From: Ruegeria sp. YS9
Lineage (GTDB): Bacteria > Pseudomonadota > Alphaproteobacteria > Rhodobacterales > Rhodobacteraceae
Assembly: GCF_024628725.1 (NCBI RefSeq)
Contig: NZ_CP102411.1
Span: 62,001 to 126,000, forward strand
Length of the DNA: 64,000 nt
Direction: 5' to 3'
Part shown: one piece after another, positions 25,928 through 40,488 of the stretch
How the letters are laid out: each line of letters starts with the position of its first letter
Numbering within the stretch: the stretch's first letter is position 1
Notes under the pieces: generated by a model
The model's database searches: none
What the model saw: the letters and a program-made list of their open reading frames with translations, nothing else
What the model was told of the DNA's origin: nothing
Translations under genes and position numbers: made by a program

Positions 25928-26694
25928 ACCCTGTGATTTCACTCAACGCGGTATCGCAGCACTTTGCCAGTGCGGCAGCTCTTGCAGATGTTTCACTGTC
26001 GGTGCAGCCGGGTGAAAGTGTCGCGCTACTCGGTCCTTCGGGAGCGGGCAAATCAACGTTGCTGGCGTTGTTGGATGGTCGTTCGAGCGGTTGGCAGGGC
26101 GAGGCCCAGGTGCTGGGCAAGTCACTTTTGGCAACAGGAATTCCATCCCGCGAGGACCGTGCCAATATCGGCTTTGTCTTCCAGGAATTCGCATTGGTTG
26201 ATCGGCAGAGTGTCTATCAGAATGTGATGAACGGTCGGATGGGCCGGATGAATATCTGGTCCTCACTCTGGGGGCGGTTCCGGGAAGAGGACCATATGTG
26301 CGTGACACGGGCGCTTCAGGATACGGGGCTGTCCGATCTGGCAAGCCGCCGTGCCGATCAGTTGTCGGGTGGACAACGGCAGCGCGTTGCGATTGCCAGA
26401 TGTCTGGCACAAGAACCCGAGTTGATCCTTGCGGATGAGCCCGTCAGCAATTTGGACCCTGCTCACGCAGAACGCATTCTGAGCCTGATCACCAGCTCTG
26501 CACGTAGCCGCGAAATCGGCGTCATTTTCAGCTCGCATCAGCCCGACCTGTCACGCCGCTTTGCTGAGCGCATCATAGGCCTGCGAGATGGCGTGGTATT
26601 GTTCGACAAACCGTCGGCTCAGTTGACCAGCGGGGACATCGATGAACTGTATCACGGTGCCGGTGTCACATCGGGGCTGCGTGTAGTCAGTTGA
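25924..26694 (+). CDS. phnC: Phosphonate-type ABC transporter ATP-binding protein
   Basis: 256 residues with a complete ABC ATPase: Walker A GPSGAGKST (~37-45), Q-loop FVFQEFALVDR, signature LSGGQRQRVAIARCLAQ, Walker B LILADEPVSNLDP, H-loop SSHQPDL. The YQNVMNGRMGRMN stretch is characteristic of PhnC. Family role: energising uptake of phosphonates, phosphite or related compounds with PhnE and PhnD. Here the binding protein is destroyed, so the gene may be a decaying remnant or use another binding protein elsewhere. Confidence 0.88.
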   Translation: MNPVISLNAVSQHFASAAALADVSLSVQPGESVALLGPSGAGKSTLLALLDGRSSGWQGEAQVLGKSLLATGIPSREDRANIGFVFQEFALVDRQSVYQNVMNGRMGRMNIWSSLWGRFREEDHMCVTRALQDTGLSDLASRRADQLSGGQRQRVAIARCLAQEPELILADEPVSNLDPAHAERILSLITSSARSREIGVIFSSHQPDLSRRFAERIIGLRDGVVLFDKPSAQLTSGDIDELYHGAGVTSGLRVVS

Positions 26695-27437
26695 TGGGTC
26701 GATCCGTCATTTGGGTCATGCTGGTGCTGGCGATCCTGTGGTCGCTGACCAGCGGAGATATGGGATTGGGCAAGCTGCCAGGCGCGGGACCCCGTCTGGC
26801 AGAGTTTTTGGGGCGTATGATCCCACCTGACCTGTCCGTTTGGCGCGAGGTTCTGACCGGGCTGGCGGAGACTCTGAGGATCGCCATTCTGGGAACATTG
26901 TTCGCCGTGATCCTGTCGGTGGGACTGGCCGTTTTGGCCTCTGAAACTATGGTACCACCAGCGATCTGGCGTCCCGTCCGTGCCTTGCTTGCGGTTATCC
27001 GGTCGATCCCGCTGATCCTGGTCGCTATGCTAATGGTGGGCGCTGTTGGGTTGGGTCCGCTTCCCGGTATACTGGCAATCACATTTCACGCGACCGGCAT
27101 GTTGGCAAAGTTCTATGCAGAAGCCATCGACAATGTTGCCACCGCTCCTGTGGCGGCGCTTGAAAGCGCAGGGGCCAACAGAATTCAACAGTTGCGTTGG
27201 GCAATCTGGCCGCAGATGGCGCCTGTGATCATGCGCGATACCGTATTTCGGTTTGAGCTAAATCTGCGCGAAAGCCTGATACTGGGCATTGTCGGTGCAG
27301 GTGGCATTGGGTTGTATGTGCAAACCTATGTACGGTCGTTTCAGTATGAAAAGGCTGCGACCGTGACGTTGGCAATCATTGTTCTGGTTTTATTGTCAGA
27401 GGCGCTGAATATGGCCTTGCAAAAACGGTTCAACTAA
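26694..27437 (+). CDS. phnE: Phosphonate-type ABC transporter permease
   Basis: 247 residues, five to six membrane segments, with the PhnE permease core: LTGLAETLRIAILGTLFAVIL, RSIPLILVAMLM, and the EAA-like loop AALESAGANRIQQLRWAIWPQ followed by RESLILGIVGAGGIG. ATG overlaps the phnC stop (TGATG). It completes the membrane part of the importer whose binding protein is broken. Confidence 0.87.
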   Translation: MGRSVIWVMLVLAILWSLTSGDMGLGKLPGAGPRLAEFLGRMIPPDLSVWREVLTGLAETLRIAILGTLFAVILSVGLAVLASETMVPPAIWRPVRALLAVIRSIPLILVAMLMVGAVGLGPLPGILAITFHATGMLAKFYAEAIDNVATAPVAALESAGANRIQQLRWAIWPQMAPVIMRDTVFRFELNLRESLILGIVGAGGIGLYVQTYVRSFQYEKAATVTLAIIVLVLLSEALNMALQKRFN

Positions 27438-27635
27438 GCCGGAATTTCCCAATTCTCTAAAGAAAAGGCTCGTGTCTTTCCTTTTCTTCCATCGCGGTTG
27501 AAGGTTGGATGCTTCGCTTGAAACCGGGCCGGTGTAGCCTGCTACACACGCCCTCGCGCTGGTTTGTTAAGGCCTCAAGCTTGCTAGATTGAAAATCGCC
27601 TGCGTTGAGGAAAATTCTTGGTGCCAATCTAGCGT
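27438..27635. other. Intergenic region with a hairpin
   Basis: No gene. A perfect stem GTGTAGC/GCTACAC at 27532-27547 and pyrimidine-rich flanks lie between the convergent phnE and transglutaminase genes and may terminate either transcript. Confidence 0.4.
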
Positions 27636-28397
27636 TCAAACGGATTCACCAGAGTTGCCATGGGAATGTGTTGCCGAAACATTTGCCACCAGCCTGCCAG
27701 TGCGTAGTGCTCTTACACGTGCGTTCATCCAATGCCTCACGACGACTCGGTACATCAGTTCACGAAAAAAGCCAAAGTTCTGCCTGTGACGGACATAAAA
27801 GGAGTCAGGTGAGTCAAAGTCCCCAAAATCCTGCACGATGCCGTTTCTTTGAATGTATGTGTCACGGCCTTCCCATTCGACCTGGGGATCGCTCAGGCAA
27901 TCCGTCCCCACACCATACCCACACAGGCTTTCTGTTTTGGGAAATGTCTGCTGCAACACGCGTAAGAAAAGCTCATCCAGAATAAAGCCTTCCAGCTTTA
28001 GCCACGTACCCTCTGCTTCGACTTCAACCCATGAATGCACAATCTCCGTCGGCGCCATCGGATAGAAAAGCTCGGGAACCACACCCCTCTGCAACTCTTT
28101 GTGGATCGTAAAGCCATGCAAACGGCATCGGATACCGCTGCCGCGAAACAGTGCCATCAGAAGAGTGCCCTTGGTATTGCATTGCCCATAGCCATTGGCG
28201 AGTACCTCTGATGCCGGGATATCGTCTGCACGGTTGTAACCAAAGGCAATCTCGTTACGCACGAAATCATAAATAGCGCCAATTCGATCCAAGACAGGCA
28301 GATCGGGCCAGCGCCGTTCCGTTATGAGTCCCAAAATTGCGGGTGTTTCAAAATCAAGCAGAGGTGTGGCGGTTAGCAACGGGTCTCGGTTCAGCAT
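27636..28397 (-). CDS. Transglutaminase-like domain protein
   Basis: 253 residues. The transglutaminase-like core is at ~40-145: RIGAIYDFVRNEIAFGYN, catalytic Cys in NGYGQCNTKGTLLMAL, and His in IVHSWVEVEAEG followed by a strand with LKLEGF. No signal peptide is seen, so it is probably cytoplasmic. Such domains act as cysteine proteases or amidases rather than as true transglutaminases. Immediately upstream, at 28428-28458, is a MerR-type promoter like those of the metal genes next door, which places it in the same putative regulon. Confidence 0.8.
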   Translation of the reverse strand: MLNRDPLLTATPLLDFETPAILGLITERRWPDLPVLDRIGAIYDFVRNEIAFGYNRADDIPASEVLANGYGQCNTKGTLLMALFRGSGIRCRLHGFTIHKELQRGVVPELFYPMAPTEIVHSWVEVEAEGTWLKLEGFILDELFLRVLQQTFPKTESLCGYGVGTDCLSDPQVEWEGRDTYIQRNGIVQDFGDFDSPDSFYVRHRQNFGFFRELMYRVVVRHWMNARVRALRTGRLVANVSATHSHGNSGESV

Positions 28398-28427
28398 TTG
28401 GTCTCTCGTCGAATCAACTCAGAAAGA

Positions 28428-28458
28428 CTTGTAATTGCTACAGTGACTATAGCTTCAA
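28428..28458 (-). promoter_or_regulatory. MerR-type promoter of the transglutaminase-like gene
   Basis: On the minus strand TTGAAG (-35, 28458-28453), a 19-bp spacer containing the dyad GCTATAG-TCA-CTGTAGC, and TACAAG (-10, 28433-28428). A 19-bp spacer with a central dyad is the hallmark of MerR-activated promoters. The start codon is ~30 bases downstream. It resembles the sites at 29033, 35955 and 37150. Confidence 0.6.
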
Positions 28459-28494
28459 GGGGCTAATTCCAGTTCGCAACGACGCTGCCCAGGG

Positions 28495-28923
28495 TTACGC
28501 GCCGATTTCTTCGTGATCAGTAAGACATTCGGAATGATCGCGCAGAACTTCGAGTACACGACAATCCGAGGTGTTGCCGCCACTGCATTCATGCACCATG
28601 CGCTCCAGCTCGGTCCGCAACGCTTCCAGCCGCGCCATTCTTTGCTCAATCTGTTTGAGTTGCCGGCGCGCGATACTGTCGGCTTCATGACAGGGGCGAT
28701 CCGGATCGTCGGACAAATCAAGCAGTTCGCGTATCGCCTCAAGCGAAAACCCCAGTTGGCGGGCGTGACGGATAAAAGCCAGGCGATCCAATTCGGTATG
28801 GCCATAACGCCGCTGGCCACCTTCGGTGCGCCCCGGTTCCGGCATAAGTCCGATCTGCTCGTAGTAGCGGATCGTCTGAACCTTGGTTCCGGTCTTTTTT
28901 CCAAGCGTTCCGATCGTCAGCAT
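28495..28923 (-). CDS. MerR family regulator with Pb/Cd/Zn-type cysteine triad
   Basis: 142 residues: MerR winged helix (MLTIGTLGKKTGTKVQTIRYYE, GQRRYGHTELDRLAFIRHARQLGFS), long dimerisation helix, and metal-binding loop with C78, C113 and C121 (plus C133). A cysteine at ~78 marks divalent-metal sensors (ZntR, CadR, PbrR) as opposed to copper sensors, which have Ser. It is divergent from the SCO-Dsb operon, with the dyad promoter at 29033-29063 between. The Zn/Cd/Pb ATPase at 33589-35922 is a probable target. The exact metal cannot be told from sequence. Confidence 0.85.
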   Translation of the reverse strand: MLTIGTLGKKTGTKVQTIRYYEQIGLMPEPGRTEGGQRRYGHTELDRLAFIRHARQLGFSLEAIRELLDLSDDPDRPCHEADSIARRQLKQIEQRMARLEALRTELERMVHECSGGNTSDCRVLEVLRDHSECLTDHEEIGA

Positions 28924-29032
28924 CTGGGTCTCCTTGCAAAGTTACAGCTTATGTAGGTTCAGGTCAGCACCGCACAATAGCACCTTCCAGCCGGTGGACC
29001 TGTGACACCCAGCCGCAGGCTCGAAATCACCT

Positions 29033-29063
29033 TTGAACCTCTAGCAGGTAGAGGGTGTACACG
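29033..29063 (+). promoter_or_regulatory. MerR-type promoter of the SCO-Dsb-PCu(A)C-M23 operon
   Basis: TTGAAC (-35, 29033-29038), 19-bp spacer (29039-29057), TACACG (-10, 29058-29063). The spacer overlaps the dyad CCTCTA-N5-TAGAGG (29038-29054), close to the core of pbr/zntA-type operators. Transcription would start near 29070, about 30 bases before the TTG start of the first SCO gene. Confidence 0.7.
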
Positions 29064-29100
29064 CCGTTCTGAACCAAGAATCGCAGGCGGACGGCTAACT

Positions 29101-29700
29101 TTGAAACTGACTGTATTTCAGAAAATCTTATGGGTGCTGGCTGGTGTCGCAACGGCGGCATTTGCCTATCTGATGTTGTGGTCAGATAACAGATCCGTAC
29201 GGACCGAAGAAGGTTCTGTCCCGTTCGAGGCCAGGTTCGAACTGACAGATCACTCTGGTGTTGTCCGTACTCAGAACGACTTTGCGGGCAAGTGGATGTT
29301 GGTGTTTTTTGGGTTCACCAACTGCCCGGACGTTTGCCCTACAACACTGTCCGAGGTGGCAGCAGTGCAGGAAGGCCTGGGAACCCAATCAAACCAAGTG
29401 CAACCCATCTTCATTTCAATTGACCCCGAACGCGACACTCCGGCCGTCTTGGCCGAGTATGTACCACTTTTCGATGCGGGGATCATTGGACTTACAGGCA
29501 CGTCAGAACAGATAGCGCAAACGTCCAAGACTTTTCCGATATTCTACGAACGGATCGAACAAGCCGCTGCACCGGACGGATACACGATGGGGCATACCTC
29601 TCATCTGTTTCTGTTCAATGAGGACGCTGGATTCGTTCAGTCCTGGTCATATGGCACGCCTCCCGAAGAAATTCTTGCGGATCTGAAACAGAGACTCTGA
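29101..29700 (+). CDS. SCO1/SenC family thioredoxin-fold protein
   Basis: 199 residues from a TTG start, chosen because the MerR-type promoter at 29033-29063 excludes earlier starts. One N-terminal membrane anchor (KILWVLAGVATAAFAYLML), then the SCO fold with metal ligands C-x3-C in FTNCPDVCPTTL and the distal His in GHTSHLFLF. SCO proteins carry copper or reduce thiols for CuA assembly of cytochrome oxidase, working in the periplasm. It is the first gene of an operon with dsbB, dsbA, PCu(A)C, a second SCO and an M23 peptidase. Confidence 0.88.
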   Translation: MKLTVFQKILWVLAGVATAAFAYLMLWSDNRSVRTEEGSVPFEARFELTDHSGVVRTQNDFAGKWMLVFFGFTNCPDVCPTTLSEVAAVQEGLGTQSNQVQPIFISIDPERDTPAVLAEYVPLFDAGIIGLTGTSEQIAQTSKTFPIFYERIEQAAAPDGYTMGHTSHLFLFNEDAGFVQSWSYGTPPEEILADLKQRL

Positions 29701-29705
29701 GCACC

Positions 29706-30128
29706 ATGTCCTGGTTTTCCAAAGATACACTTCTCGGCCTGGCCTGGGCGATTGCCCTGGTTGCTTCTCTTTCTGTTCTGTTCATTGGAGAGATCCTGGG
29801 GCAGACGCCCTGTGTGCTTTGCTGGTTCCAGCGCGCGTTCATGTTCCCATTGGCGATCGTACTGGGGCTTGGCCTGTGGTGGCAGGACCAGAACGTGGGC
29901 CGTTACGGGATAGCACTGGCATTGGGGGGCGCTGCTGTCGCCTTGTGGCACATGGGCCTGTATGCCGGTCTGATCCCCGAAAAAATCCAACCATGCTCAG
30001 CTAGCGGTCCGTCCTGCACGGACGCAAATCAAACTGTTTTGGGCGTCCCGATTCCGCTGATGGCGCTCGTTTCATTCGCGCTAATCGGCGTTCTGTGCGC
30101 CCTTTCACTCAAGGAGAAACAAGTATGA
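29706..30128 (+). CDS. dsbB: Disulfide bond formation protein B
   Basis: 140 residues, four membrane helices. First periplasmic pair CVLC (~36-39) after GQTP, and second cysteine pair in PCSASGPSC (~99-107) within a short periplasmic loop, the pattern of DsbB, which reoxidises DsbA and passes electrons to quinone. It starts 5 bases after the SCO stop and its own stop overlaps the DsbA-like start. Confidence 0.9.
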   Translation: MSWFSKDTLLGLAWAIALVASLSVLFIGEILGQTPCVLCWFQRAFMFPLAIVLGLGLWWQDQNVGRYGIALALGGAAVALWHMGLYAGLIPEKIQPCSASGPSCTDANQTVLGVPIPLMALVSFALIGVLCALSLKEKQV

Positions 30129-30784
30129 ACAGACGAGGCCTGATTTTGTCCGTTCTCGCATTTGGTGGCGCTGGTTTTGGAGCCGCCTCCTGGTACGTGA
30201 ACCGCCCGGCTGCTTCAGGCAACACCGAGCCTGTCGCACCCGAAATCGCTGAAACACTTATCCGTTCTTACTCGCCTGTTCTCGGCCCTAAAGACGCACC
30301 GGTTACAATTGTCGAATTTTTCGATCCGGCTTGTGAAGCCTGCCGTGCCTTTCATCCGGTCGTGAAGGACATCATGGCACAGCATGGAGACGCCGTGCGC
30401 GTTGTGATCCGGTACACCCCTTTCCATGGCGAAGGCTCAGAGGAGGCGATCCGCGTGCTTGAAGCGGCACGCATGCAGGGGGTCTTTGAACCGGTCCTGG
30501 AAGCCGTGCTGCGAGAGCAGCCCAAATGGGCCGCGCATGGTGCGCCTGAGCCTGGTCTTATTATTCGAATTGCAGCAGCGGCGGGACTGGATGCCGATGC
30601 AGCGCAGGCACAAATGCTCGCGCCCCAGACAGTCGGTGTTCTTAATCAGGATCGCGCTGATGTCGAAGCGGTCGGTATACGGCAAACTCCGACATTCTTC
30701 GTCAATGGCAAATCTCTGGATCCGTTTGGTGAGGCTGAATTGAGACGTCTGGTCGCTGCAGAAGTTGCAGCACTGCAAAGCTGA
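30125..30784 (+). CDS. DsbA family thiol oxidoreductase
   Basis: 219 residues; AAGGAG 9 bases before the ATG. Twin-Arg-like or Sec signal region (MNRRGLILSVLAFGGAGFG), then thioredoxin fold with active site FFDPACEACRAFHP (CEAC instead of CPHC) and the cis-proline loop GIRQTPTFFVNG. Coupled to dsbB by a 4-base overlap, so it is most likely its partner. Its role in this metal operon may be keeping cysteine ligands or substrates oxidised when thiophilic metal enters the periplasm; that is inference. Confidence 0.88.
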   Translation: MNRRGLILSVLAFGGAGFGAASWYVNRPAASGNTEPVAPEIAETLIRSYSPVLGPKDAPVTIVEFFDPACEACRAFHPVVKDIMAQHGDAVRVVIRYTPFHGEGSEEAIRVLEAARMQGVFEPVLEAVLREQPKWAAHGAPEPGLIIRIAAAAGLDADAAQAQMLAPQTVGVLNQDRADVEAVGIRQTPTFFVNGKSLDPFGEAELRRLVAAEVAALQS

Positions 30785-30802
30785 GCAGTAGCGAGAGGTA
30801 CT

Positions 30803-31282
30803 ATGAGACTCACTACAAAAAATACACTTCTGGCAGGTGTGCTTGCCGCATTCGGCACCACTGCCATTCTATCGGCACCGGTACTGGCAGGGGGCGACGA
30901 TGTTGTCGTTGAAGATGCCTGGTCGCGGGCCTCTATCGGCACCAACCGGCCGGGTGCCGCGTACATGACGATCCGCAACACCAGTGATGAGGTCGTCACA
31001 CTGACCTCTATCCGCACCGATCTTGCGATGATGCCCGAGATCCACCAGACATCGACCAATGCAGAGGGCGTCAGTTCCATGGCACCAGCTGGCGAGCTGG
31101 AAATTGCGCCCGGTGGTTCCGTCGCGCTTGAGCCCGGCGGGCTGCATGCAATGCTTATGCGGCTGCAACGCCCGATGACTGAAGGCGAGAGTTTTGCGCT
31201 GACCCTGATCTTTGCCGATGGAGCAGAAAAGACCGTCAACATACCGATATTCGGTATTGCTGCACGAGGCCCAGAGAACTGA
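30803..31282 (+). CDS. PCu(A)C family copper chaperone
   Basis: 159 residues with a signal peptide (to ~VLAGG). The PCu(A)C motif is visible: Met/His ligands in MMPEIHQTSTNAEGVSSM and GGLHAMLMRL, framed by DAWSRAS and RPGAAYMTIRN. These periplasmic proteins hand Cu(I) to cytochrome oxidase or to SCO. It lies between the DsbA-like gene and a second SCO gene, consistent with a copper delivery set. Confidence 0.9.
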   Translation: MRLTTKNTLLAGVLAAFGTTAILSAPVLAGGDDVVVEDAWSRASIGTNRPGAAYMTIRNTSDEVVTLTSIRTDLAMMPEIHQTSTNAEGVSSMAPAGELEIAPGGSVALEPGGLHAMLMRLQRPMTEGESFALTLIFADGAEKTVNIPIFGIAARGPEN

Positions 31283-31908
31283 TGCAGCGGCGACGTGTTC
31301 TCACATTTGGGGCTGCTGGAATTGGCGCAATCGGCCTGACACTCTTTGTCGGATGGTGGCAAGTGGATGGGCCGGGAGCGGCTCAATCAGTTCGCCTTCG
31401 TCCCCTTGCGTTGTCGGGCATGAACTTTCGCATGGTTGATCACGAAGGGACCCCCGTCACCCCGCAATCGCTGGTCGGACGTGCAACAATGGTGTTCTTC
31501 GGCTTTACCTACTGCCCGGATGTTTGCCCGACGACTCTTTCGGATATTTCCCTCTGGCTGGATGATCTGGGCAATGACGCGGACGAATTGAACGTCGTGT
31601 TCATAACCGTAGACCCTGAAAGGGACACGGTCGATGCCATGACCGATTATGTCAGCTACTTTCATCCAGCTATTCGCGGTTGGGTCGGCGTTTCGGACCA
31701 AATCGCGCAAGCCGCAGACGACTTTCGCGCCACTTATGAAAAAGTTCCTATGGAAGATGGCGACTACACAATGAACCACACCGCAAGTGTTTTTCTGTTT
31801 AACCCCACAGGCGAATTTGTCAGCACCATCGACTATCATGAGCAGAGAGAGTTTGCTGTACCCAAGATCCGCCGCGCTTTGAAAAGTGGAGCGGATACAA
31901 CATCATGA
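31282..31908 (+). CDS. Second SCO1/SenC family protein
   Basis: 208 residues, start overlapping the PCu(A)C stop by one base (TGATG). N-terminal anchor (RRRVLTFGAAGIGAIGLTLFVG), then FTYCPDVCPTTLSDIS with the C-x3-C pair and the His in MNHTASVFLF. It differs enough from the SCO at 29101 to be an old duplication. Probable partner of the adjacent PCu(A)C. Confidence 0.88.
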   Translation: MQRRRVLTFGAAGIGAIGLTLFVGWWQVDGPGAAQSVRLRPLALSGMNFRMVDHEGTPVTPQSLVGRATMVFFGFTYCPDVCPTTLSDISLWLDDLGNDADELNVVFITVDPERDTVDAMTDYVSYFHPAIRGWVGVSDQIAQAADDFRATYEKVPMEDGDYTMNHTASVFLFNPTGEFVSTIDYHEQREFAVPKIRRALKSGADTTS

Positions 31909-33272
31909 GCGCACGGTTTCTAGCAACCTCGGCGATCGCGATCAGCAGCGTCTCGATTGCTGCGATCATGTTCATTGCCTCGAACAGGTCTGAAATGACG
32001 GTGCCTGCGCCCACGGTCTTTCAGGTGCCCAAACTTCCTGCGGAACCGCAGACCACATCGGCTCTGTTGCTGAACGTACCATCGGCAGAACTCGCTCCAA
32101 GCCCCGTTTCGTTTCGACCTGTTCAGCCGGAACCCATTCAGGCAGAGGAACCTTTGCCTCCTGTTGAACCACCTTCACGAACATGGACGCGCGAGCTTGC
32201 GGTGGGTGACACACTCGACAGTATGCTGTCTGACGCGGGGATTGACGCAACCGATCGCGCTGAAATCGCACTTGCACTTGGCGCTGAATACGACTTGCGG
32301 CGCTTGCGGCCGGGTCACTCGATAACAGTCGTTGCAACGGCAGCGGATCAACTGCGGAGTGTGGAGCTCGCCGTGGAAGATGGCGTGAGAATTGAAGTGA
32401 CACTTAGCGAGACATTGTCCACGCGCGTGGTCTCACCGGAACCCGACACTGTCATTCTGGCCCGCAAAACAGAGATCGAAACTTCGATCTCAAATGCTCT
32501 GAGCACCGCAAAGATCCCGGTTCGTTTTGCGGTGGATCTCGCTCAGATGCTGAGCGGCACAGTGGATTTTCGACGCGATCTGACCGGTGGCGAAAAACTC
32601 CGTCTTCTCTGGCGCGAAGAAAGTATCGACGGCGAGAAGGTAGGCCAGCCGCAACTCATTTTTGCAGCACTGGAAGTGGATGACCAACTTTACGAAATAG
32701 CATGGCCAGACGCCGAAATTGGCCGCGCCGCAATCTATGTCGATGGTGAGCTTCTTCGCGTCTTCTCGCAACCAGTTGAGGGCGCGCGCCTGAGTTCTGT
32801 CTTTGGTCGGCGGAAACATCCGGTCTACGGCAATGTGCGGATGCACACCGGTGTCGATTTCGCTGCCGCACGTGGTACTCCGGTACATGCGACGGCTCCG
32901 GGGCGCGTGTCTTATGTAGGTTGGCGCGGGGGGTATGGGCGTGTGGTGGAAATCGCTCATGGATCGGACACGGTCACGCGATATACGCATCTTAGCGCAA
33001 CCGCCGATGGTCTGGCCAAAGGTCAGCGCGTGGAGGCTGGCGAGGTGGTTGGTCGTGTCGGGTCGAGCGGCACCGCGACCGGCCCCAATCTTCATTATGA
33101 AGTATTGGTCGACGGGCGACCAACGGACCCGCTTTCTGACGACCGACTTGCTGCCGCTGCGAACAACGAGGTTGAAAACGAAGCAGCGCGAAAACGCTTA
33201 AGAAATGCTCGAGCACAGCTTGAGAAACAGCTGGGCAATCCCGTCGCCAAAAAACGCGAATCTAGTTCGTGA
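31905..33272 (+). CDS. M23 family metallopeptidase
   Basis: 455 residues with an N-terminal membrane segment, a Pro/Glu-rich stretch (~40-95), a region like the OapA/LysM-type middle domain of cell-wall endopeptidases (~95-290), and an M23 LytM domain (~300-410): SVFGRRKHPVYGNVRMHTGVD with HxxxD, HLSATADGLAKGQRVEAGE, and NLHYEV with the second His pair. A coiled basic tail ends it. It should cleave peptidoglycan cross-links. ATGA overlap with the SCO gene shows it belongs to the metal-regulated operon, unusual for this family. Confidence 0.88.
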   Translation: MSARFLATSAIAISSVSIAAIMFIASNRSEMTVPAPTVFQVPKLPAEPQTTSALLLNVPSAELAPSPVSFRPVQPEPIQAEEPLPPVEPPSRTWTRELAVGDTLDSMLSDAGIDATDRAEIALALGAEYDLRRLRPGHSITVVATAADQLRSVELAVEDGVRIEVTLSETLSTRVVSPEPDTVILARKTEIETSISNALSTAKIPVRFAVDLAQMLSGTVDFRRDLTGGEKLRLLWREESIDGEKVGQPQLIFAALEVDDQLYEIAWPDAEIGRAAIYVDGELLRVFSQPVEGARLSSVFGRRKHPVYGNVRMHTGVDFAAARGTPVHATAPGRVSYVGWRGGYGRVVEIAHGSDTVTRYTHLSATADGLAKGQRVEAGEVVGRVGSSGTATGPNLHYEVLVDGRPTDPLSDDRLAAAANNEVENEAARKRLRNARAQLEKQLGNPVAKKRESSS

Positions 33273-33371
33273 GAGTTTCTTAAAACGGCTTCAGGTGCGC
33301 GGCTATCAGTTTGCGGGTATGCGCGCCTGAAGCGGACTGCACTCCAGAAGAACCAAATCAGAGGATGTAAA

Positions 33372-33536
33372 ATGATGGCAATCGCGGGGGCCTTGGTTGG
33401 CGCCGTTTGGGGTGGGGTCTTGGCAAAGCGCCGGAATGGCAACAGCCTTGATATTCTTCAATACGCTAAAGGATATGCCATCGCTTTTGGCCTGGTGGCG
33501 TTTTTTCTTTCAATCGCAGTTGTGCGCCTGATGTAA
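33372..33536 (+). CDS. Small membrane protein
   Basis: 54 residues from ATG 33372 with AGAGGA upstream. Two hydrophobic segments (MMAIAGALVGAVWGGVLA and YAIAFGLVAFFLSIAVV) flank a short polar part with Arg-Arg-Asn. It ends 20 bases before a terminator and so is likely the last gene of the SCO-Dsb-M23 operon. No family recognised. Confidence 0.6.
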   Translation: MMAIAGALVGAVWGGVLAKRRNGNSLDILQYAKGYAIAFGLVAFFLSIAVVRLM

Positions 33537-33556
33537 CGCGCCAGTAAGCAAGGCGA

Positions 33557-33582
33557 AAGCCGGACACCTTGAAGTCCGGCTT
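33557..33582. terminator. Bidirectional terminator
   Basis: Perfect stem AAGCCGGAC/GTCCGGCTT with an 8-base loop between the convergent M23 operon and P-type ATPase gene. Confidence 0.7.
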
Positions 33583-33588
33583 CCACTC

Positions 33589-35922
33589 TTATGTGGTCGC
33601 AGCGCCTATTCCTTGCGAGCCAAGGGTATTTGCCTTAGTCTGGGCGCTATGATCTTCCGGAGCTTTCAGAAGCCGTAAGGCATTGGCCACGACCAGCAAG
33701 GACACTCCGACATCCGCGGCGATTGCACCCCACATGGATGCCAGCCCAAAACCCGTCAGAGTGACAAACAATGCTTTGGTCGCAAGTGAGAAGCCGATGT
33801 TCTGACGGATGATCGACATGGTTCGACGTGAATGGTCGATCAGCCAGGGTACTTTACCGATGTCGTCGGTCATCAGAGCAATATCTGCGGTCTCGATAGC
33901 AGCGTCGGACCCAACTGCACCCATCGCAACCGCATAATGTGCCCGAGCCATCGCAGGTGCGTCGTTGACGCCATCGCCGATCATCGCAACCATCTCGTGC
34001 TGTTCTGCCAGTTCCTCAATCGCAGCGACTTTGTCTTCCGGCAGAAGCTGGGCCCGGACTTCGTCGATACCGACTTCGGCTGCTACCGCTCTCGCGGTTT
34101 GTTCGTTGTCACCCGTCAGCATGATGATCGACTTCACGCCCTGCGCGTGAAGCCGGGCAACGATGCTTCGGGCTTCGGGTCGAATGCGGTCCCGCAGCTC
34201 AAGCAAACCGGCGACTCCGTTCTCATCCCCGACAACCACAAGTGTGCTTCCCGCGCTCTCGATTTGGTTGCGCAATTCGGCAGGGATGGACGCGCCAAAG
34301 CCCTTTTCTTCAGCGAAGCGGTCGGAGCCAAGCCAGATATCTCCGCGCTCGATGCGGCCTTCAAGACCCCGACCGGGAACGGTTCGGATGTCTTCAGCCG
34401 CAGATATCGAAATGTCGGTCTGTTCTGCCCGGGTCAAAATGGCGCGGGCCAGCGGGTGTGAAGACCGAACCTCGAGGCTGGCAGCGCTCGCCAACAGCTC
34501 CTGCTCGGATGGGTCGCCCAGCGGATACACATTGGCGACTTCAGGCTCTCCCATGGTGATCGTGCCGGTCTTGTCCATGGCCAGTGCGGTGGTACGCCCG
34601 GGAGCCTCGATATATGCGCCGCCCTTAATCAGAACCCCAGCCCGGGCCGAAGCGGTCAAAGCCGCAACGATTGAAACCGGTGTGGAAATGACGAGCGCAC
34701 AGGGGCAGGCGATAACCAGAAGAACAAGTGCATTGTAAAACCAGAAACCCGACGATGCGCCAAATGCAAGCGGCGGGATCAGGGCGATAGCCACTGCGAC
34801 GACCATAACGATGGGCGTAAAGATCCGCGCAAATTTTGTAACCCACTGCTCAACCGGCGCACGGCGAGCATGAGCATCACCGACCATCCGGATGATCTTG
34901 GCAAGCACGGTATCGGACGCTGTTTTCGTCGCACGTATTTTGAGGGTGCCTTCACCATTGATTGTGCCGGCATAGACCTCATCATCCAGCTCTTTGGGAA
35001 TCAACGCGCTTTCACCTGTGATTGGAGCCTGGTCAACGGCACCGGCCCCTTCGATGACTTCCCCGTCAAGTGGAATGCGATCCCCACCCCGAACGATGAA
35101 GCTGTCACCGACAAAGACATCCGCCGCCGGGACCGTTGCCTCTGAGCCGTCAGCACGAACCAGCCGAACCGTCGGGGGGGCCAGATCAAGCAGCGCGGAT
35201 ACCGCGTTCCGAGCCCGTCCGACACTCCAGCTTTCCAGATAAAGCGAGAGCGAAAAGAAGAATGCCACCGTTGCCGCTTCGAAGAACTCGCCCAAAGCGA
35301 TAGCGCCACAGACGGCAACCACCATCAGCAGGTTCATATCCGGTGAAAGGCGTCGCGCCGAAGACCAGGCCTTGGGCGCCACCAGCCAGACGCCAAACAA
35401 GATCGCGACCGCGAACAAAGCTGCCTCGGGCAAAGGCATCGGAACCTCACCATGTCCCGAAAACAGCCCGAGCGCACCGCCCATGCCTGTTTCGAAAATG
35501 TGCCAGCCAAAACCCGCTGCCCAAAACCCTCCGCTGAGGATGGTGAACCGCCGCTGACGTGCAATATGCGCCGCCTGGTCCTGAGCGGCATTTCCGTCAT
35601 CCCATGGTTTGGCGGTCATACCAGTACTGGCAACCAGCAGCATGACATCTTCGTCAGACATCTTGGCAGCACTTTCAAGAAGCGTCATTCGACCGTTGAT
35701 GACATCAAAAGCGAGATGCTCTTCACCACCAACTTTCGGGCCGATAACCCGGTTCAGGATCGCAACCTCTTCGGCGCAATCAAGGCCAGAGACCTGAAAG
35801 CTTCTGCCACCTTCGGGAATCGGACCGACGGGCGCGATGTCACCACACCCGCTACTGCCGCACGCGTTGTGACCTTGTCTATTTTCGTGGTCATGGTCGT
35901 GGTTGTGGGTATCGGATGACAT
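33589..35922 (-). CDS. Zn/Cd/Pb-type P1B ATPase
   Basis: 777 residues. His-rich N-terminus (TDTHNHDHDHENRQGH-like, residues ~4-18), a metal-binding domain with single-Cys motif SGLDCAEE (45-52), and the P1B core: TGES (~302-305), CPC in VIACPCALVIS (406-408), DKTGT (450-454), HP locus [18 protein letters not shown]. The final membrane helix has ADVGVSLLVVANALRLL, keeping the Asp that marks ZntA-type Zn/Cd/Pb exporters. It effluxes divalent soft metals to the periplasm. The MerR-type promoter at 35955-35985 lies 33 bases upstream. Confidence 0.9.
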   Translation of the reverse strand: MSSDTHNHDHDHENRQGHNACGSSGCGDIAPVGPIPEGGRSFQVSGLDCAEEVAILNRVIGPKVGGEEHLAFDVINGRMTLLESAAKMSDEDVMLLVASTGMTAKPWDDGNAAQDQAAHIARQRRFTILSGGFWAAGFGWHIFETGMGGALGLFSGHGEVPMPLPEAALFAVAILFGVWLVAPKAWSSARRLSPDMNLLMVVAVCGAIALGEFFEAATVAFFFSLSLYLESWSVGRARNAVSALLDLAPPTVRLVRADGSEATVPAADVFVGDSFIVRGGDRIPLDGEVIEGAGAVDQAPITGESALIPKELDDEVYAGTINGEGTLKIRATKTASDTVLAKIIRMVGDAHARRAPVEQWVTKFARIFTPIVMVVAVAIALIPPLAFGASSGFWFYNALVLLVIACPCALVISTPVSIVAALTASARAGVLIKGGAYIEAPGRTTALAMDKTGTITMGEPEVANVYPLGDPSEQELLASAASLEVRSSHPLARAILTRAEQTDISISAAEDIRTVPGRGLEGRIERGDIWLGSDRFAEEKGFGASIPAELRNQIESAGSTLVVVGDENGVAGLLELRDRIRPEARSIVARLHAQGVKSIIMLTGDNEQTARAVAAEVGIDEVRAQLLPEDKVAAIEELAEQHEMVAMIGDGVNDAPAMARAHYAVAMGAVGSDAAIETADIALMTDDIGKVPWLIDHSRRTMSIIRQNIGFSLATKALFVTLTGFGLASMWGAIAADVGVSLLVVANALRLLKAPEDHSAQTKANTLGSQGIGAATT

Positions 35923-35954
35923 AGTTAGACCTCAAGAATCTCTGCGGTCCTTTG

Positions 35955-35985
35955 CAAATAGTTCCTACAGCAACTAGAGCTTCAA
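35955..35985 (-). promoter_or_regulatory. MerR-type promoter of the Zn/Cd/Pb ATPase
   Basis: Minus strand: TTGAAG (-35, 35985-35980), 19-bp spacer (35979-35961) with imperfect dyad CTCTAG-TTG-CTGTAG, TATTTG (-10, 35960-35955). Close match in layout to the sites at 28428, 29033 and 37150. The ATPase start is ~33 bases downstream. Confidence 0.65.
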
Positions 35986-36110
35986 TACCTTTTTCAATTT
36001 TTTTTCAATCCGGTTCGTTGCCCGCGATATTGATGCTTCATTCCTTCTTGCGGGCTGGCCGCGTGAATGCAATCTAGTCGCAGAAGACGTAAAAAATTTG
36101 GAACAGGTCA

Positions 36111-36383
36111 ATGCAGAAACGGATCGCAATTACCATCACGTTAGTCTCGATTACTGCCGGTTGCTCAGCCCAGTTCACAGGGGGCAAAAGCAAAGCATTC
36201 GAACCAGGTAACCTGCCAGATTCGGTCGTTGCACTGGCAGGGCCGGGGCAGGATCTGGCTACGGCACGCCTTTTACCAGATGACAATTGCTTCTGGTATG
36301 AGCACAGCGGACCTGTCGAGACGACATTGGTACCATTGCGCGCGACGAATGGCGCTCCGATCTGCGCCGCGCGCGACGCCTGA
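36111..36383 (+). CDS. Small lipoprotein
   Basis: 90 residues with a lipoprotein signal (ITITLVSITAGC lipobox, Cys ~18). The mature part is short and has a WYEHSGPVETTLVPLRATNG motif that recurs in Rhodobacterales lipoproteins of unknown role, with Cys pairs (DNCFWYEH, PICAARD). It faces the L,D-transpeptidase gene across a terminator; it has no visible MerR-type promoter. Confidence 0.7.
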   Translation: MQKRIAITITLVSITAGCSAQFTGGKSKAFEPGNLPDSVVALAGPGQDLATARLLPDDNCFWYEHSGPVETTLVPLRATNGAPICAARDA

Positions 36384-36393
36384 TAAAAAAAGA

Positions 36394-36420
36394 GGGCAGC
36401 GACGTCCACCTACGCTGCCC
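36394..36420. terminator. Bidirectional terminator
   Basis: Perfect stem GGGCAGCG/CGCTGCCC with A-tract on the left and AAAATTT on the right, between the convergent lipoprotein and L,D-transpeptidase genes. Confidence 0.75.
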
Positions 36421-36425
36421 AAAAT

Positions 36426-37088
36426 TTATGAGCGGGCTGTGACGCTATCTTCGGCCGAGTATAAGTATGCGGTCGAGCCGATTTTTACATGTGGGTAGAG
36501 ATCATTGATATGGGCCATGATCATTCTAACACATCCAGAACTTGCGCGACCACCGATGCTTCTGGGCTGAGGTGTACCGTGGATTCTGAGATAAGTATCT
36601 CGATCCCCAACGTATAGATAAAGGGCTCGAGAGCCGAGAGCATTACTTGGCCCGGGTTCCATGCCATCCCGAAATTCCGCGTATTCGGGGTTGCGCTCGA
36701 TCATTGAAGCCGTTGGTGTCCAATGTGGCCACTCGACCTTGCGCCGGATAGCATAGGTACCGGGCTCGTAAAGGTTCCCACGCGCGATCGCTACGCCATA
36801 GCGCATTGCTGTCCCGCCTTCCTCGATATGGTAAAGATAGCGCGCGACGGCATCGACATGGATGTCACCAGGAACCAAACCATCATTTGCTACGACACGT
36901 CGTGGTAAAAAACGGTCATGAACGCCCCATGGATTTGAGGTCGCTGGATCGTAATCAAATGGCGTGACCTGGCTGTCCCAATAGGTCTTTTGCGACGAGG
37001 TTGGCCATGTTTTGGCGATCAATGGACTGGCCGCAGACGCGGAGAACAGCGCAGTGGTTGATTGAATGAAATGGCGCCTTGTCAGCAT
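36426..37088 (-). CDS. L,D-transpeptidase (YkuD family)
   Basis: 220 residues with a Tat-like signal (MLTRRHFIQSTTALFSASAA). YkuD domain ~80-210: HVDAVARYLYHIEEGG, YGVAIARG, and the catalytic stretch LRIHGTPQPRSIGG ... SSGCVRM with His, Ser, Cys and Arg. These enzymes make 3-3 peptidoglycan cross-links or anchor outer-membrane proteins. A MerR-type promoter with a near-perfect CTCTAGC-T-GCTAGAG dyad lies upstream at 37150-37180, tying it to the metal regulon. Confidence 0.88.
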   Translation of the reverse strand: MLTRRHFIQSTTALFSASAASPLIAKTWPTSSQKTYWDSQVTPFDYDPATSNPWGVHDRFLPRRVVANDGLVPGDIHVDAVARYLYHIEEGGTAMRYGVAIARGNLYEPGTYAIRRKVEWPHWTPTASMIERNPEYAEFRDGMEPGPSNALGSRALYLYVGDRDTYLRIHGTPQPRSIGGRASSGCVRMIMAHINDLYPHVKIGSTAYLYSAEDSVTARS

Positions 37089-37149
37089 AGATCTCGTCCT
37101 GGTTCACAAGTTTAATGTATTTGCATCGCATTTTCGCGATCAAATTCGA

Positions 37150-37180
37150 GTCTTAAAGCCTCTAGCAGCTAGAGCTTCAA
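37150..37180 (-). promoter_or_regulatory. MerR-type promoter of the L,D-transpeptidase
   Basis: Minus strand: TTGAAG (-35, 37180-37175), 19-bp spacer with perfect dyad CTCTAGC-T-GCTAGAG (37160-37174), TAAGAC (-10, 37155-37150). The gene start is ~60 bases downstream. Best dyad of the four related sites. Confidence 0.7.
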
Positions 37181-37319
37181 GAGGCTTCAGGTAACACTTG
37201 GTTTACCTAGTCGACCATGTCGCCGGTTGCGTGAACCCTACTTCGGTCGAGTCTACTTCGGACTAGGTCGCAAAGACAATTGACAGAAACGAAGCCGCCA
37301 TTGTAGCGGTGAATTGTTT

Positions 37320-37508
37320 TCGGTTCCTGATGGCGGAAGCCAAAAGGATTAAATGGGAATACGGTTCGGTGTTTTTAACGGCGCCAATTCCGTAACTGCC
37401 CCCGCAACTGTGAGCGGAGAGCGATGCCAAGACACCACTGGTTCGTAATGGAACCGGGAAGGTTGGCGGAGCGAGCACCCGCGAGTCAGGAGACCTGCCG
37501 TAAAACGC
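37320..37508 (+). ncRNA. Cobalamin riboswitch
   Basis: The conserved elements appear in order: AAATGGGAATACGGT, AACTGCCCCCGCAACTGTGAG, GATGCCAAGACACCACTGG, GGAACCGGGAAGGTTGG, and the B12-box-like GCGAGTCAGGAGACCTGCC. Spacing fits a class I cobalamin riboswitch (about 190 nt). It ends ~85 bases before the CbiM start, where it should repress translation or transcription when adenosylcobalamin is abundant. Confidence 0.9.
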
Positions 37509-37592
37509 CGGGCTATGCCCAGACTGTATCTGTCGGCCTTACGGCCGATTCAACCTGACAAGCCGCCGGGTGAGGCGGTAGGGAGAAATAAA

Positions 37593-38276
37593 ATGCACAT
37601 CGAACCGGGCATCGTGAATGGTGCCAAAATCGCGCTTTCCTATGTTACCGCCGCAGGCGCGGCTACTTACGCAGCGAAAGAAACGTTTTCCACATTGCGT
37701 GCGAATGGACCTGCATCTTTTGTCATGCGCTCGGTGCTCGCCACCGTTGGTGTCTTCCTTTTCTTTGAAGTCCTGCCACACTTCCCGGTTGGTGTCTCTG
37801 AAGTCCACTTCATTCTGGGGTCGACGCTGTTCCTGCTTCTCGGTGCTGCACCCGCGGCTTTTGGATTGGCAGCCGGTCTGCTGATTCAGGGGGTGTTTTT
37901 TGCCCCGTTCGATCTTCCGCAGTACTTCATCAACCTAACCACTCTGCTGGTGCCGCTATTTGCGCTACAAGCATTGGCCAGCCGCATCATTGCACCCGGT
38001 ACAGCATATGTTGACCTCAAATATGGCCAAGCTCTTGCCCTGAGTGCGATGTATCAGGGGGGAGTAGTCGCATGGGTTGCGTTCTGGGCTTTCTACGGCC
38101 AGGGATTTGGTGCTGAAACTATGGCGTCGGTTCTGTCCTTTGGCGGTGCCTATATGCTGGTAATAGTCATCGAGCCGATTGCTGATCTAGCAGTGCTTGC
38201 GGCAGCCAAGGCGATGCGCGGTTTGAACAGCACAGGTCTGGTGACTCCGCGCTTGTACAACGCTGCGGAAGCTTGA
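37593..38276 (+). CDS. cbiM: Energy-coupling factor transporter permease CbiM (cobalt)
   Basis: 227 residues; start MHIEPGIVNGAK after GGGAG. The N-terminus Met-His-Ile-Glu-Pro is the CbiM/NikM hallmark, since the amino-terminal amine and His2 bind the metal. About seven hydrophobic segments follow (GVSEVHFILGSTLFLLLGAAPAA contains another conserved His). The riboswitch upstream marks it as a cobalt rather than nickel importer component. No CbiN, CbiQ or CbiO is adjacent, so partners must be elsewhere or it works alone. Confidence 0.88.
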   Translation: MHIEPGIVNGAKIALSYVTAAGAATYAAKETFSTLRANGPASFVMRSVLATVGVFLFFEVLPHFPVGVSEVHFILGSTLFLLLGAAPAAFGLAAGLLIQGVFFAPFDLPQYFINLTTLLVPLFALQALASRIIAPGTAYVDLKYGQALALSAMYQGGVVAWVAFWAFYGQGFGAETMASVLSFGGAYMLVIVIEPIADLAVLAAAKAMRGLNSTGLVTPRLYNAAEA

Positions 38277-38348
38277 CCAAAGTTTGAAGCGGTGCCCTAA
38301 ACTGGGGTTGCCGCGAAACAACTGGTAGTCGCAGGACCAAAGCTTATC

Positions 38349-38373
38349 GTGGCGCGTCTCGAGGGCGCGCCAC
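38349..38373. terminator. Bidirectional terminator
   Basis: Perfect stem GTGGCGCG/CGCGCCAC followed by ATTTGCTTTT, between cbiM and the convergent BTLCP gene. Confidence 0.7.
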
Positions 38374-38381
38374 ATTTGCTT

Positions 38382-39005
38382 TTAGCCGCTAAAAACCTGC
38401 ACCCAACGGTCAGGGTGTAGTGGGTCCTGTATTCTTAGGAATAGATACCTGGTTTCCTTCCACGTTTTGATCCTGTTGGTAACATTGTCCAGAACCAAGT
38501 CGCCTTCACTCGAGCGATAGACAAGAACAGCATGGCCATTGCGATTGGTGTCCAAGACAGTCGCAATTAGTAGCTTCGTAGGATCCAAACCATTCTGCAC
38601 AAGTTCAAACTTCTTTTGCAAAGCGAAGTCTTCGCAATCTCCTGACCCTTGCGTCGGCAGTGTCCAGTACTCCTTTGTCCCATATTGGCTTTGATCCGAA
38701 ACGGCACGAATCCTTCGATTGACGCGCGTGTTGATCGTTTTAACGATCTGATTTTCTTGCGCCACGGAGAGACCAGAACTACGAGCGCTCGCGCACGCCC
38801 ACGAATAATCTTTGCATAGTGTTTTGGCACCCGATGGCGCTTCAATCTTTCTATCAAGACCGATCGAGGGAAGCTCAGATGCTTGCGACGCAGCGGCAGA
38901 CACAAAAAAGCTGCATATAAAACAGACCATTGGGAGATAACCCAGCAGGTTTTTCGATAACACTCCCTGAACTAAAGTGGGATTTGTCATATCTGCCTTC
39001 TCCAT
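38382..39005 (-). CDS. Bacterial transglutaminase-like cysteine protease (BTLCP, DUF920)
   Basis: 207 residues; the start at 39005 has AGAGGAAC at good distance. Signal or anchor segment (LLGYLPMVCFICSFFVSAAAS), then the BTLCP fold: catalytic Cys in GSGDCEDFALQKKFEL, His in NGHAVLVYRS and Asp in LVLDNVTNRI. The best-known member, LapG, trims a surface adhesin under c-di-GMP control. No lapD or adhesin gene is present here. It is the second transglutaminase-like protein in the metal region. Confidence 0.85.
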   Translation of the reverse strand: MEKADMTNPTLVQGVLSKNLLGYLPMVCFICSFFVSAAASQASELPSIGLDRKIEAPSGAKTLCKDYSWACASARSSGLSVAQENQIVKTINTRVNRRIRAVSDQSQYGTKEYWTLPTQGSGDCEDFALQKKFELVQNGLDPTKLLIATVLDTNRNGHAVLVYRSSEGDLVLDNVTNRIKTWKETRYLFLRIQDPLHPDRWVQVFSG

Positions 39006-39352
39006 GCTCGTTCCTCTAAAGTATCCAAACTTCCCCGGCCAATGTGTTTTATTCCAAGCCTTCATGTGCTTAGGGGAATTGCAACAGCTTCTTAGCCTCT
39101 AGGGGTAAAGCGGCAAAAATTTGCAGATTCTTTGGTATTTCTTCCTTAGTTGACAGCATCAGAGCATCCACGCCATCACCAGCCCGGCATAGCTAACAGA
39201 GCGAATTAGAGGGTAAGCTGATCGCAATTCTCTCATTCAACAAAAATACAACAGAGATCGGCCGTCATCGCTGAGGGTTACGGAATACCGGGACAATGAA
39301 GCCGCTCCTCCGCAAGCTGAGATAGCCAGTTTCGGTTTTCCAGGCGCTGCAA
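39006..39352. other. Intergenic region
   Basis: No gene seen. An AGCCTCTAGGGGTAAA stretch near 39090 resembles half of the neighbouring MerR operators but lacks a proper dyad and -10. The rest shows no pattern. Confidence 0.35.
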
Positions 39353-39772
39353 TTAGTGGCCGCTAATGACATCTTTGACGAAAGGCTCGTTGAGCAACGC
39401 CGTTAGCAGGGGGCATGAGGCCGCACCCTCGGTGCAGGTCTGCACAAGTTCTGCCAGTGCTTGCTCCAACCGTTGGAGGGCGGCGATTTTTGACCTGACG
39501 TTGTCGAGATGTCTTGTTGCAACGTCTTCGACGTCACGACAAGCTTGCTCGGGCGCTTTGGACAATTCGCGAAGTGCGCATGCATCCTGAATGGTAAAGC
39601 CAAGATCGCGGCAGCGTTTGATGAATCTGAGCTCGGAGATTTCCCGTTCCGTGTATGCGCGGCGTCCCGAGGCGGTTCGACCGGCTTTCTCGACTATGCC
39701 TTCCCGTTCGTAATAGCGGATCGTCTCGACCGACAGACCGATCAATCTCGCCGCTTCGCCAATCGCAATCAT
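39353..39772 (-). CDS. MerR family metal regulator
   Basis: 139 residues: winged helix MIAIGEAARLIGLSVETIRYYEREG, hinge, helix, and metal loop with C78, C113 and C120 (also C54, C65). The seven-residue distance between the last two cysteines is closer to CadR than to MerR. It is divergent from a MerT-like gene, with a dyad promoter at 39788-39818 between, and probably regulates it. Confidence 0.85.
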   Translation of the reverse strand: MIAIGEAARLIGLSVETIRYYEREGIVEKAGRTASGRRAYTEREISELRFIKRCRDLGFTIQDACALRELSKAPEQACRDVEDVATRHLDNVRSKIAALQRLEQALAELVQTCTEGAASCPLLTALLNEPFVKDVISGH

Positions 39773-39787
39773 GTGATGACCTTTCCC

Positions 39788-39818
39788 TTGAACCTGTAGC
39801 TACTACAGGATGCATGTT
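39788..39818 (+). promoter_or_regulatory. MerR-type promoter of the MerT-like gene
   Basis: TTGAAC (-35, 39788-39793), spacer of 19 bp with perfect dyad CCTGTAG-CTA-CTACAGG (39793-39809), CATGTT (-10, 39813-39818). Dyad differs from that of the 28-37 kb regulon, suggesting specificity for the regulator at 39353-39772. Confidence 0.7.
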
Positions 39819-39917
39819 GTCGGTCATGATGTCGAATTTCACAAACCGCGCGAAGCAAGAATCGAGGAAGTCGAACCGGCTTCCGTTCGAGTTCGTCAAA
39901 GCCGGAGAAAGCTGACC

Positions 39918-40241: not shown

Positions 40242-40245
40242 CGCC

Positions 40246-40464
40246 ATGAGTGAAAAGCGCCCGAACCTTGTCAGCACGATCATCTGCCCGGAATGTGGAC
40301 ATTCAAGGCCTGAAACGATGCCAACAGACGCGTGCCAGTGGTTCTACGAATGCACATCTTGCGGAAAAGTCCTGAAGCCACTTCCCGGCGATTGCTGCGT
40401 CTACTGTTCCTACGGATCGGCTCCATGCCCGCCAATTCAGGCGGGCTACAAATGCTGCGGTTGA
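40246..40464 (+). CDS. GDCCVxC domain protein
   Basis: 72 residues rich in cysteine: IICPECGHS, ECTSCGKVLKP, then the diagnostic GDCCVYCSYGSAPCPPIQ, ending YKCCG. The two Cys-x2-Cys pairs suggest a zinc-ribbon; the GDCC motif (a selenocysteine site in some relatives) suggests soft-metal or redox function. Function is unestablished. It begins 4 bases after the MerT-like stop, so both form one MerR-controlled operon. Confidence 0.82.
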   Translation: MSEKRPNLVSTIICPECGHSRPETMPTDACQWFYECTSCGKVLKPLPGDCCVYCSYGSAPCPPIQAGYKCCG

Positions 40465-40488
40465 TACGGCGGCCGGGATGTCGGTTTT

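Follow-up and report, generated by a model that had tools for sequence, protein, structure and literature searches.

A MerR-type operator shared by a metal-exporting ATPase and envelope genes in a putatively mobile module of Ruegeria and its relatives

In the marine bacterium Ruegeria sp. YS9, a gene for a regulator of the MerR family lies among genes for metal export, disulfide formation, copper delivery and cell-wall enzymes, and four promoters of this group carry the same type of operator. The locus belongs to a stretch of 64,000 nucleotides (hereafter, the window; positions 62,001 to 126,000 of NZ_CP102411.1). This stretch lies on C3, one of six contigs in a 4.3-Mb genome, with a length of 130,925 bp. 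The record nearest to window positions 26000-42000 is plasmid pTHAF33_b of Ruegeria sp. THAF33, with 98% identity across all 16 kb, and contig C3 is therefore probably a plasmid.

A family scan upheld the genes that the original prediction had called at this locus (Transglut_core, MerR, two SCO1-SenC proteins, DsbB, a DsbA-like thioredoxin, PCu(A)C, M23, a heavy-metal P-type ATPase and YkuD). The minus strand carries the gene of a 253-residue transglutaminase-like protein (TGL; 27636..28397, PF01841, 45 bits), followed at 28495..28923 by that of the 142-residue MerR regulator (PF09278, PF13411, PF00376), which has Cys78, Cys113 and Cys121 and also Cys133. Divergent from merR, a six-gene operon on the plus strand codes for SCO1/SenC protein 1 (29101..29700, PF02630; its start is uncertain, TTG at 29101 fitting the N-terminus best by eye), a DsbB-like disulfide oxidase (29706..30128, PF02600), a DsbA-like thioredoxin-fold protein with a CEAC motif (30125..30784, PF13462, PF01323), the copper chaperone PCu(A)C (30803..31282, PF04314), SCO1/SenC protein 2 (31282..31908, PF02630) and an M23 peptidoglycan endopeptidase of the MepM/Shy-like type (31905..33272, PF01551), for which the ShyC, ShyA and MepM models all matched under their cut-offs. 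Downstream lie an open reading frame (ORF) of 54 aa on the plus strand (33372..33536), membrane-like by eye and annotated as a hypothetical protein in the near-identical THAF33 plasmid, and, on the minus strand, the P-type ATPase gene (33589..35922). The ATPase belongs to the Zn/Cd/Pb-exporting class: it passes the cadmium subfamily model TIGR01512 (501.4 bits, cut-off 313.5) and fails the copper subfamily model TIGR01511 (387.1 bits, cut-off 397). The group is completed by a small lipoprotein-like ORF (assigned by eye; plus strand, 36111..36383), which has no Pfam family and had been overlooked in the original prediction, and by an L,D-transpeptidase (LDT) gene on the minus strand (36426..37088, PF03734, YkuD, 78 bits).

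All four predicted 31-bp promoters were found where they had been placed. S1, TTGAAG-CTATAGTCACTGTAGCAAT-TACAAG with a CTATAG/CTGTAG dyad, lies upstream of the TGL gene (28458-28428, minus strand); S2, TTGAAC-CTCTAGCAGGTAGAGGGTG-TACACG, occupies the merR-SCO intergenic region upstream of the six-gene operon (29033-29063, plus strand); S3, TTGAAG-CTCTAGTTGCTGTAGGAAC-TATTTG, precedes the ATPase gene (35985-35955, minus strand) and S4, TTGAAG-CTCTAGCTGCTAGAGGCTT-TAAGAC, the LDT gene (37180-37150, minus strand). They share one layout, namely TTGAA[C/G], exactly 19 bp and then a TANNNN -10 element, with the dyad CT(A/C)TAG...T(A/G)(G/T)AG in the spacer, so that each of the four has its dyad within the 19-20 bp promoter spacer typical of the MerR family. 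The shared pattern has four exact matches in the window and none in 100 dinucleotide shuffles. In the whole 4.3-Mb genome there are six exact cores, the four of the window and two on the 3.2-Mb contig C1, both with a merR paralogue on one side and, downstream, a gene for cation efflux (CDF) on the other. At up to two mismatches the pattern gives 8 sites and its reversed control 12, and therefore only the exact genome matches carry weight. A chance origin of the sites was rejected on the basis of the shuffles, of the exact cores in the genome and of the reversed pattern in 199 genomes of the family (see later in the text). Allowing up to three mismatches adds a single window site, at 39788-39814, adjoining another merR gene (shuffle mean 0.03, largest 1). 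This site, TTGAACCTGTAGCTACTACAGGATGCA, has 3 mismatches and, within the region 39353-40241, lies upstream of a small membrane protein that is weakly MerT-like (23 bits, under the cut-off of 32.9); in THAF33, the MerT-like small membrane gene is followed by a GDCCVxC (seleno)protein gene.

The original prediction would have failed if the dyads were not conserved in orthologous promoters, and they are. We compared 86 loci, comprising the window, five plasmid records and 80 genome loci gathered by M23 alignment (the best 80 of 163), and scanned 250 bp upstream and 30 bp inside each gene with a covered start, in the gene's own direction and with up to two mismatches. The operator was present upstream of TGL in 70 of 70 readable promoters, of SCO1 in 81 of 81, of the ATPase in 62 of 62 and of LDT in 62 of 63. 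Altogether 275 of 276 orthologous promoters retain it, the lone miss being the LDT of locus L095. Counted by distinct upstream sequences, the figures are 29/29, 41/41, 33/33 and 31/32, respectively. For 18 further gene types of the 86 loci, among them merR and the genes that come later in the operon, the scan found no operator; S2 also lies ahead of merR on the opposite strand, a placement that the directional scan ignores. After clustering at 97%, the information content is 1.68-1.79 bits per position inside the site, against 0.49-0.86 upstream and 0.68-1.13 downstream, and since 275 of 276 promoters passed the scan, the choice of windows by the pattern inflates these values little. The TA at -10 is kept by 44 of the 46 distinct sites. 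In the same 46 sites the two half-sites covary to some extent: positions 5/21 are complementary in 61% (shuffled mean 39%, maximum 61%) and positions 8/18 in 63% (47%, maximum 67%), with 54% vs 52% for 9/17 and 52% vs 50% for 12/14. With 2000 shuffles as controls and relatedness uncontrolled, the covariation lends weak support. These comparisons show where the sites stand and that they are conserved, and support the claim that a common MerR-type operator joins a metal exporter to the SCO/Dsb/PCu(A)C/M23 and LDT genes.

The same operator was sought across the 199 family genomes. The full 27-bp pattern occurs at 97 places in 63 of them, whereas the reversed pattern occurs at none; the 97 distinct places were counted by hand from 103 rows, in which the four window sites and two sites of genome G193 appear twice. 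In 95 of the 97 cases the site precedes a metal-exporter gene or a gene of the module. According to tblastn, the next gene codes for an ATPase (28 sites), a CDF-type exporter (27), TGL (14), SCO (6), LDT (3) or another protein (19), and weak matches are included in these figures (LDT 32% in L138, CDF 34% in L146, ATPases 36% in L140 and 40% in L120). Additional checks upheld the ATPase and CDF assignments. Among the 19 others are 16 P-type ATPases with a heavy-metal-associated domain and one truncated ORF in which this domain alone was seen (L105); the remaining two are a transposase (L133) and a gene without a match (L171). In the transposase case (G193:C45), an operator identical to the ATPase-type ones is followed by a DDE transposase, apparently after an insertion behind the promoter. 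In 27 of the 103 rows, with S3 doubled, the site belongs to an ATPase gene and no merR adjoins it.

TGL has 4286 homologues at E<=1e-3, and its Cys73, His121 and Asp141 are invariant across 40 aligned sequences. Its AlphaFold2 model is good (pLDDT 85) and its top PDB match is weak (3isr, a putative cysteine protease, TM 0.38), so that no function was gained from the structure. The TGL gene was found at 33 places in the 199 genomes, of which 31 were readable (one in G030 was not fetched and the start in L253 was uncovered); the site is present at 28 of the 31, or 24 of 27 without repeats, and missing in L238, L252 and L296. In eight loci TGL is the first gene of an operator-bearing operon, with a merR similar to the chromosomal paralogue on the divergent side, and the following genes are a CDF exporter and a methyltransferase in six, the CDF gene alone in one and neither in one. 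The tie between TGL and the operator is therefore independent of the plasmid module.

The SSGC(186) motif of the L,D-transpeptidase is intact in an alignment of 7 orthologues and, by eye, the protein has a Tat-like leader (RRHFI). Its 74 homologue places in the 199 genomes gave 57 distinct promoters once repeats, unfetched stretches and those with <200 bp upstream were left out. Where the module ATPase lies in the same stretch, the operator is present with up to two mismatches at 12 of 14 promoters, and the other two have 3 mismatches; away from the module ATPase it is found at 2 of 43, a group in which L011 and L285, with an ATPase match of just 35-36%, were counted. The operator-bearing LDT thus belongs to an L,D-transpeptidase family that is otherwise mostly without the operator. 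A second LDT on the same contig (C3:9157-9804, L011), ~70% identical, has none. The small lipoprotein-like ORF accompanies LDT within the metal module and also at numerous loci outside it, e.g. in L270 and L271 (contigs of ~4 Mb with no ATPase nearby), and no operator was found upstream of it in its own direction (0/59); it may be a partner or a regulator of the transpeptidase. In Ruegeria sp. B32 (L195, 6001-10099), a 67% identical LDT and a small hypothetical gene adjoin a heavy-metal P-type ATPase and cueR, and this LDT/small-gene pairing therefore also occurs near a copper-type regulator; a CueR-type site ahead of the L195 LDT was rejected, the best match having 5 mismatches. Finally, we noted a rearranged form in Paracoccus sp. 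Arc7-R13 (L196, 1-4968), where a helix-turn-helix regulator gene stands between the ATPase and M23-DUF411-LDT and the operators, with 0 and 2 mismatches, point both ways.

In most relatives the module is longer, a point missed by the original prediction: of the 86 loci, 78 have ZIP, 78 lspA and 78 lnt, and 67 have a CDF gene (CDF1), while the Ruegeria loci among the matches listed have the short form. This layout is visible in the plasmid annotations of Phaeobacter, Sulfitobacter, Rhodobacter, Antarctobacter and Dinoroseobacter, and Dinoroseobacter shibae carries the module on pDSHI01. A protein search with M23 (E up to 1e-80) returned 144 plasmid records, of which 101 are typed as conjugative and many are near-identical. 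We regard the module as mobile. As for its surroundings in the window, a cobalamin riboswitch (37304-37516, plus strand, 117 bits against a gathering score of 31.5) lies ~120 bp from S4, ahead of a CbiM-type cobalt-uptake gene (37596-38276, PF01891). The window also contains a third MerR gene (41437-41850), a P-type ATPase with heavy-metal-binding domains (52206-54557) and an AcrB-family exporter (62056-63996), and the contig therefore looks like a larger metal-resistance region.

Regarding the regulator, a Pb/Cd/Zn cysteine triad had been predicted, and Cys78, Cys113 and Cys121 are indeed present and align with cysteines in the solved chains of CadR and in 5gpe, a PbrR-type protein. The three are invariant among 4 aligned sequences, two of which are identical. 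The helix-turn-helix and DNA-binding domains (PF13411, PF00376, PF09278) score above their cut-offs. By contrast, the protein stays under the NCBIfam cut-offs of CueR (TIGR02044, 120.3/147.4 bits), CadR-PbrR (TIGR02047, 107.9/151.45) and ZntR (TIGR02043, 100.7/167.95), and these models therefore leave its metal unsettled. The lead response of PbrR requires Cys14, Cys79 and Cys134 (PMC3431237, in the part consulted), and consequently the metal of the module MerR does not follow from its cysteines alone. Among the 82 loci with SCO1, 79 have a merR (at least 70% identity with a query) transcribed divergently from that gene, which indicates that merR travels with the module.

Taken together, these observations make it fairly probable that the locus is a mobile regulon of a divalent-metal (Zn/Cd/Pb-type) MerR protein, combining export with a metal-induced renewal of envelope functions. 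We infer the metal, the action of the linked MerR rather than of a paralogue, and the renewal role. In the MerR family, activation through DNA distortion is established, as is activation at promoters with a 19-bp spacer, e.g. by PbrR (PMC3431237, in the part consulted). At the present locus, MerR would sit on the dyad in the over-long 19-bp spacer, and metal bound via Cys78, Cys113 and Cys121 would twist the DNA and lead to the firing of all four promoters. One output would be the export of cytosolic metal by the P-type ATPase, to which most relatives add CDF and ZIP transporters. The other would be the renewal of envelope functions poisoned by thiophilic metal in the periplasm: a metal-induced LDT and M23 endopeptidase, disulfide formation by DsbA/DsbB, copper delivery to the oxidase (SCO, PCu(A)C) and, in most relatives, lipoprotein maturation by LspA and Lnt. 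We favour export plus renewal because of the operator contrast between LDT copies, because of the relatives of module proteins elsewhere in the genome (M23, 41% identical over part of its length; SCO protein 2, 28%, on C1; one diverged PCu(A)C paralogue, 36%), because L,D-transpeptidases are reportedly inhibited by copper, going by a 2018 title of Peters, and because of the induction by zinc and cadmium in Mesorhizobium (see later in the text).

Several observations weigh against this explanation. TGL has no obvious signal peptide by eye, and its original description as an envelope-remodelling gene was not borne out. No further DsbB homologue was found in the genome at E<=1e-3, and the module DsbB is therefore not simply a spare. 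Plasmid copies that hardly differ from one another make up many of the relatives, and similarity of M23 decided which 80 genome loci were taken. One LDT copy with M23, ZIP and lspA nearby (L223) is without the site, and three others with the ATPase or lspA/ZIP nearby (L200, L215, L219) show only a 3-mismatch site. In addition, the best NCBIfam model for MerR, albeit under its cut-off, is the copper regulator CueR, and the operon carries copper chaperones. MerR may thus answer copper, with the operon repairing the copper supply of cytochrome oxidase and copper-broken disulfides. The two SCO proteins, PCu(A)C and DsbA/DsbB would fit this alternative, as would the LDT pair beside cueR in Ruegeria sp. 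B32. We consider it unlikely, given that Cys78 aligns with a CadR cysteine, that the ATPase passes the cadmium and not the copper model and that operators of this class precede the genes of CDF exporters and of other metal ATPases; in L195, the ATPase next to cueR is served by a site of another kind, TTGACCTTCC...GGAA.

The two merR paralogues on C1 (52% and 44% identical), with near-identical operators of their own, could act at S1-S4 as well, which also weighs against a regulon of the linked MerR alone. The sites may then be common to several MerR paralogues, and the module may be embedded in a larger cellular Zn/Cd stimulon. The TGL operons adjoining a merR of the chromosomal type and the ATPase sites without an adjacent merR agree with this, whereas the divergent arrangement of merR and SCO1 argues against it; we see here a real possibility, if not one that we would expect. 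A main rival reading compares the locus to a pbr-like lead/zinc system, in which export would fall to the ATPase and the maturation or anchoring of periplasmic factors that bind or precipitate metal to the envelope enzymes, the wall itself not being a target. In the PbrR locus, PbrB and PbrC, the latter a predicted signal peptidase, do accompany a P-type ATPase (PMC1526738 and the CH34 genome paper, in the parts consulted), and lspA and lnt are frequent in the module loci. However, lspA has no match in the window between 24 and 42 kb, a PbrB-like phosphatase is unannotated in six stretches with incomplete tables (no dedicated search was made), and the L,D-transpeptidase, M23, DsbA/B and SCO are left unexplained; the proposal seems conceivable, though on balance questionable. 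That the sites were conserved merely through recent plasmid spread, without function, is highly improbable. Many module copies are indeed near-identical, but the sites are kept while their flanks diverge, TGL has the site in loci of another gene order, and LDT copies away from the ATPase mostly have none.

Most accounts of metal resistance centre on pumping the metal out, binding it or converting it, and the conserved, mobile promoter set studied here links a pump with envelope folding, lipoprotein maturation and cell-wall cross-linking. A further and rather doubtful step would be to see target renewal as a resistance route besides export, sequestration and chemical change. The sensor would induce mobile copies of proteins inactivated by thiophilic metals, i.e. 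LDT with its active-site cysteine, Dsb, SCO, Lnt and M23, and the cell could restore its wall, lipoproteins and oxidase as the pump clears the metal from the cytosol. If renewal is true, marine bacteria exposed to metal would be selected for changes in the cross-linking of their cell wall, and single promoters and deletions in Dinoroseobacter shibae would make it testable which envelope parts are damaged by metals.

The original prediction held that no such system was known to have been described. No description of the envelope-gene module was found in the open-licence literature, judged by the titles and beginnings of abstracts; the union of an ATPase with a predicted signal peptidase, PbrC, under a MerR protein is, however, known from pbr (PMC1526738, in part). 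In Mesorhizobium, another alphaproteobacterium, zinc induces CadA, the neighbouring CcdA and signal peptidase II, and cadmium significantly induces the first two (PMC3668242, in the part available). The resemblance to the module lies in the genes induced, which code for a P-type ATPase, for a protein acting on thiols and disulfides and for signal peptidase II, with CcdA in the place where the module has DsbA/DsbB/SCO; the terms transpeptidase and peptidoglycan are absent from the main text of that study (PMC3668242). Other Rhodobacterales have the merR/TGL-CDF-methyltransferase operon, in which the same operator stands ahead of a 59-66% identical TGL gene, whereas SCO/Dsb/M23/LDT are unmatched in those stretches and merR resembles a chromosomal paralogue. 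The CadR/cadA and ZntR/zntA divergons share with the module the dyad in a 19-bp spacer, the CadR-aligned cysteine and an ATPase or CDF target. They usually control the transporter alone, as far as the consulted part of PMC1526738 goes, and the module MerR is under both NCBIfam cut-offs. The pbr locus of Cupriavidus metallidurans (PbrR, PbrT, PbrA, PbrB, PbrC, PbrD) is likewise plasmid-borne and has a MerR activator with a 19-bp spacer promoter, a P-type ATPase (in the module 33589-35922, with the MerR-type promoter S3) and a type II signal peptidase, which most module relatives also have. It differs in that PbrB, PbrD and PbrT were not noticed in the module, without a specific search, that the module has several separate promoters of one operator type and that it adds LDT, M23, SCO, Dsb, PCu(A)C and the TGL gene, with Lnt in most relatives. 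Of the systems described so far, the pbr/cad locus comes closest, and the module is a variant of the MerR metal regulon and not a separate category.

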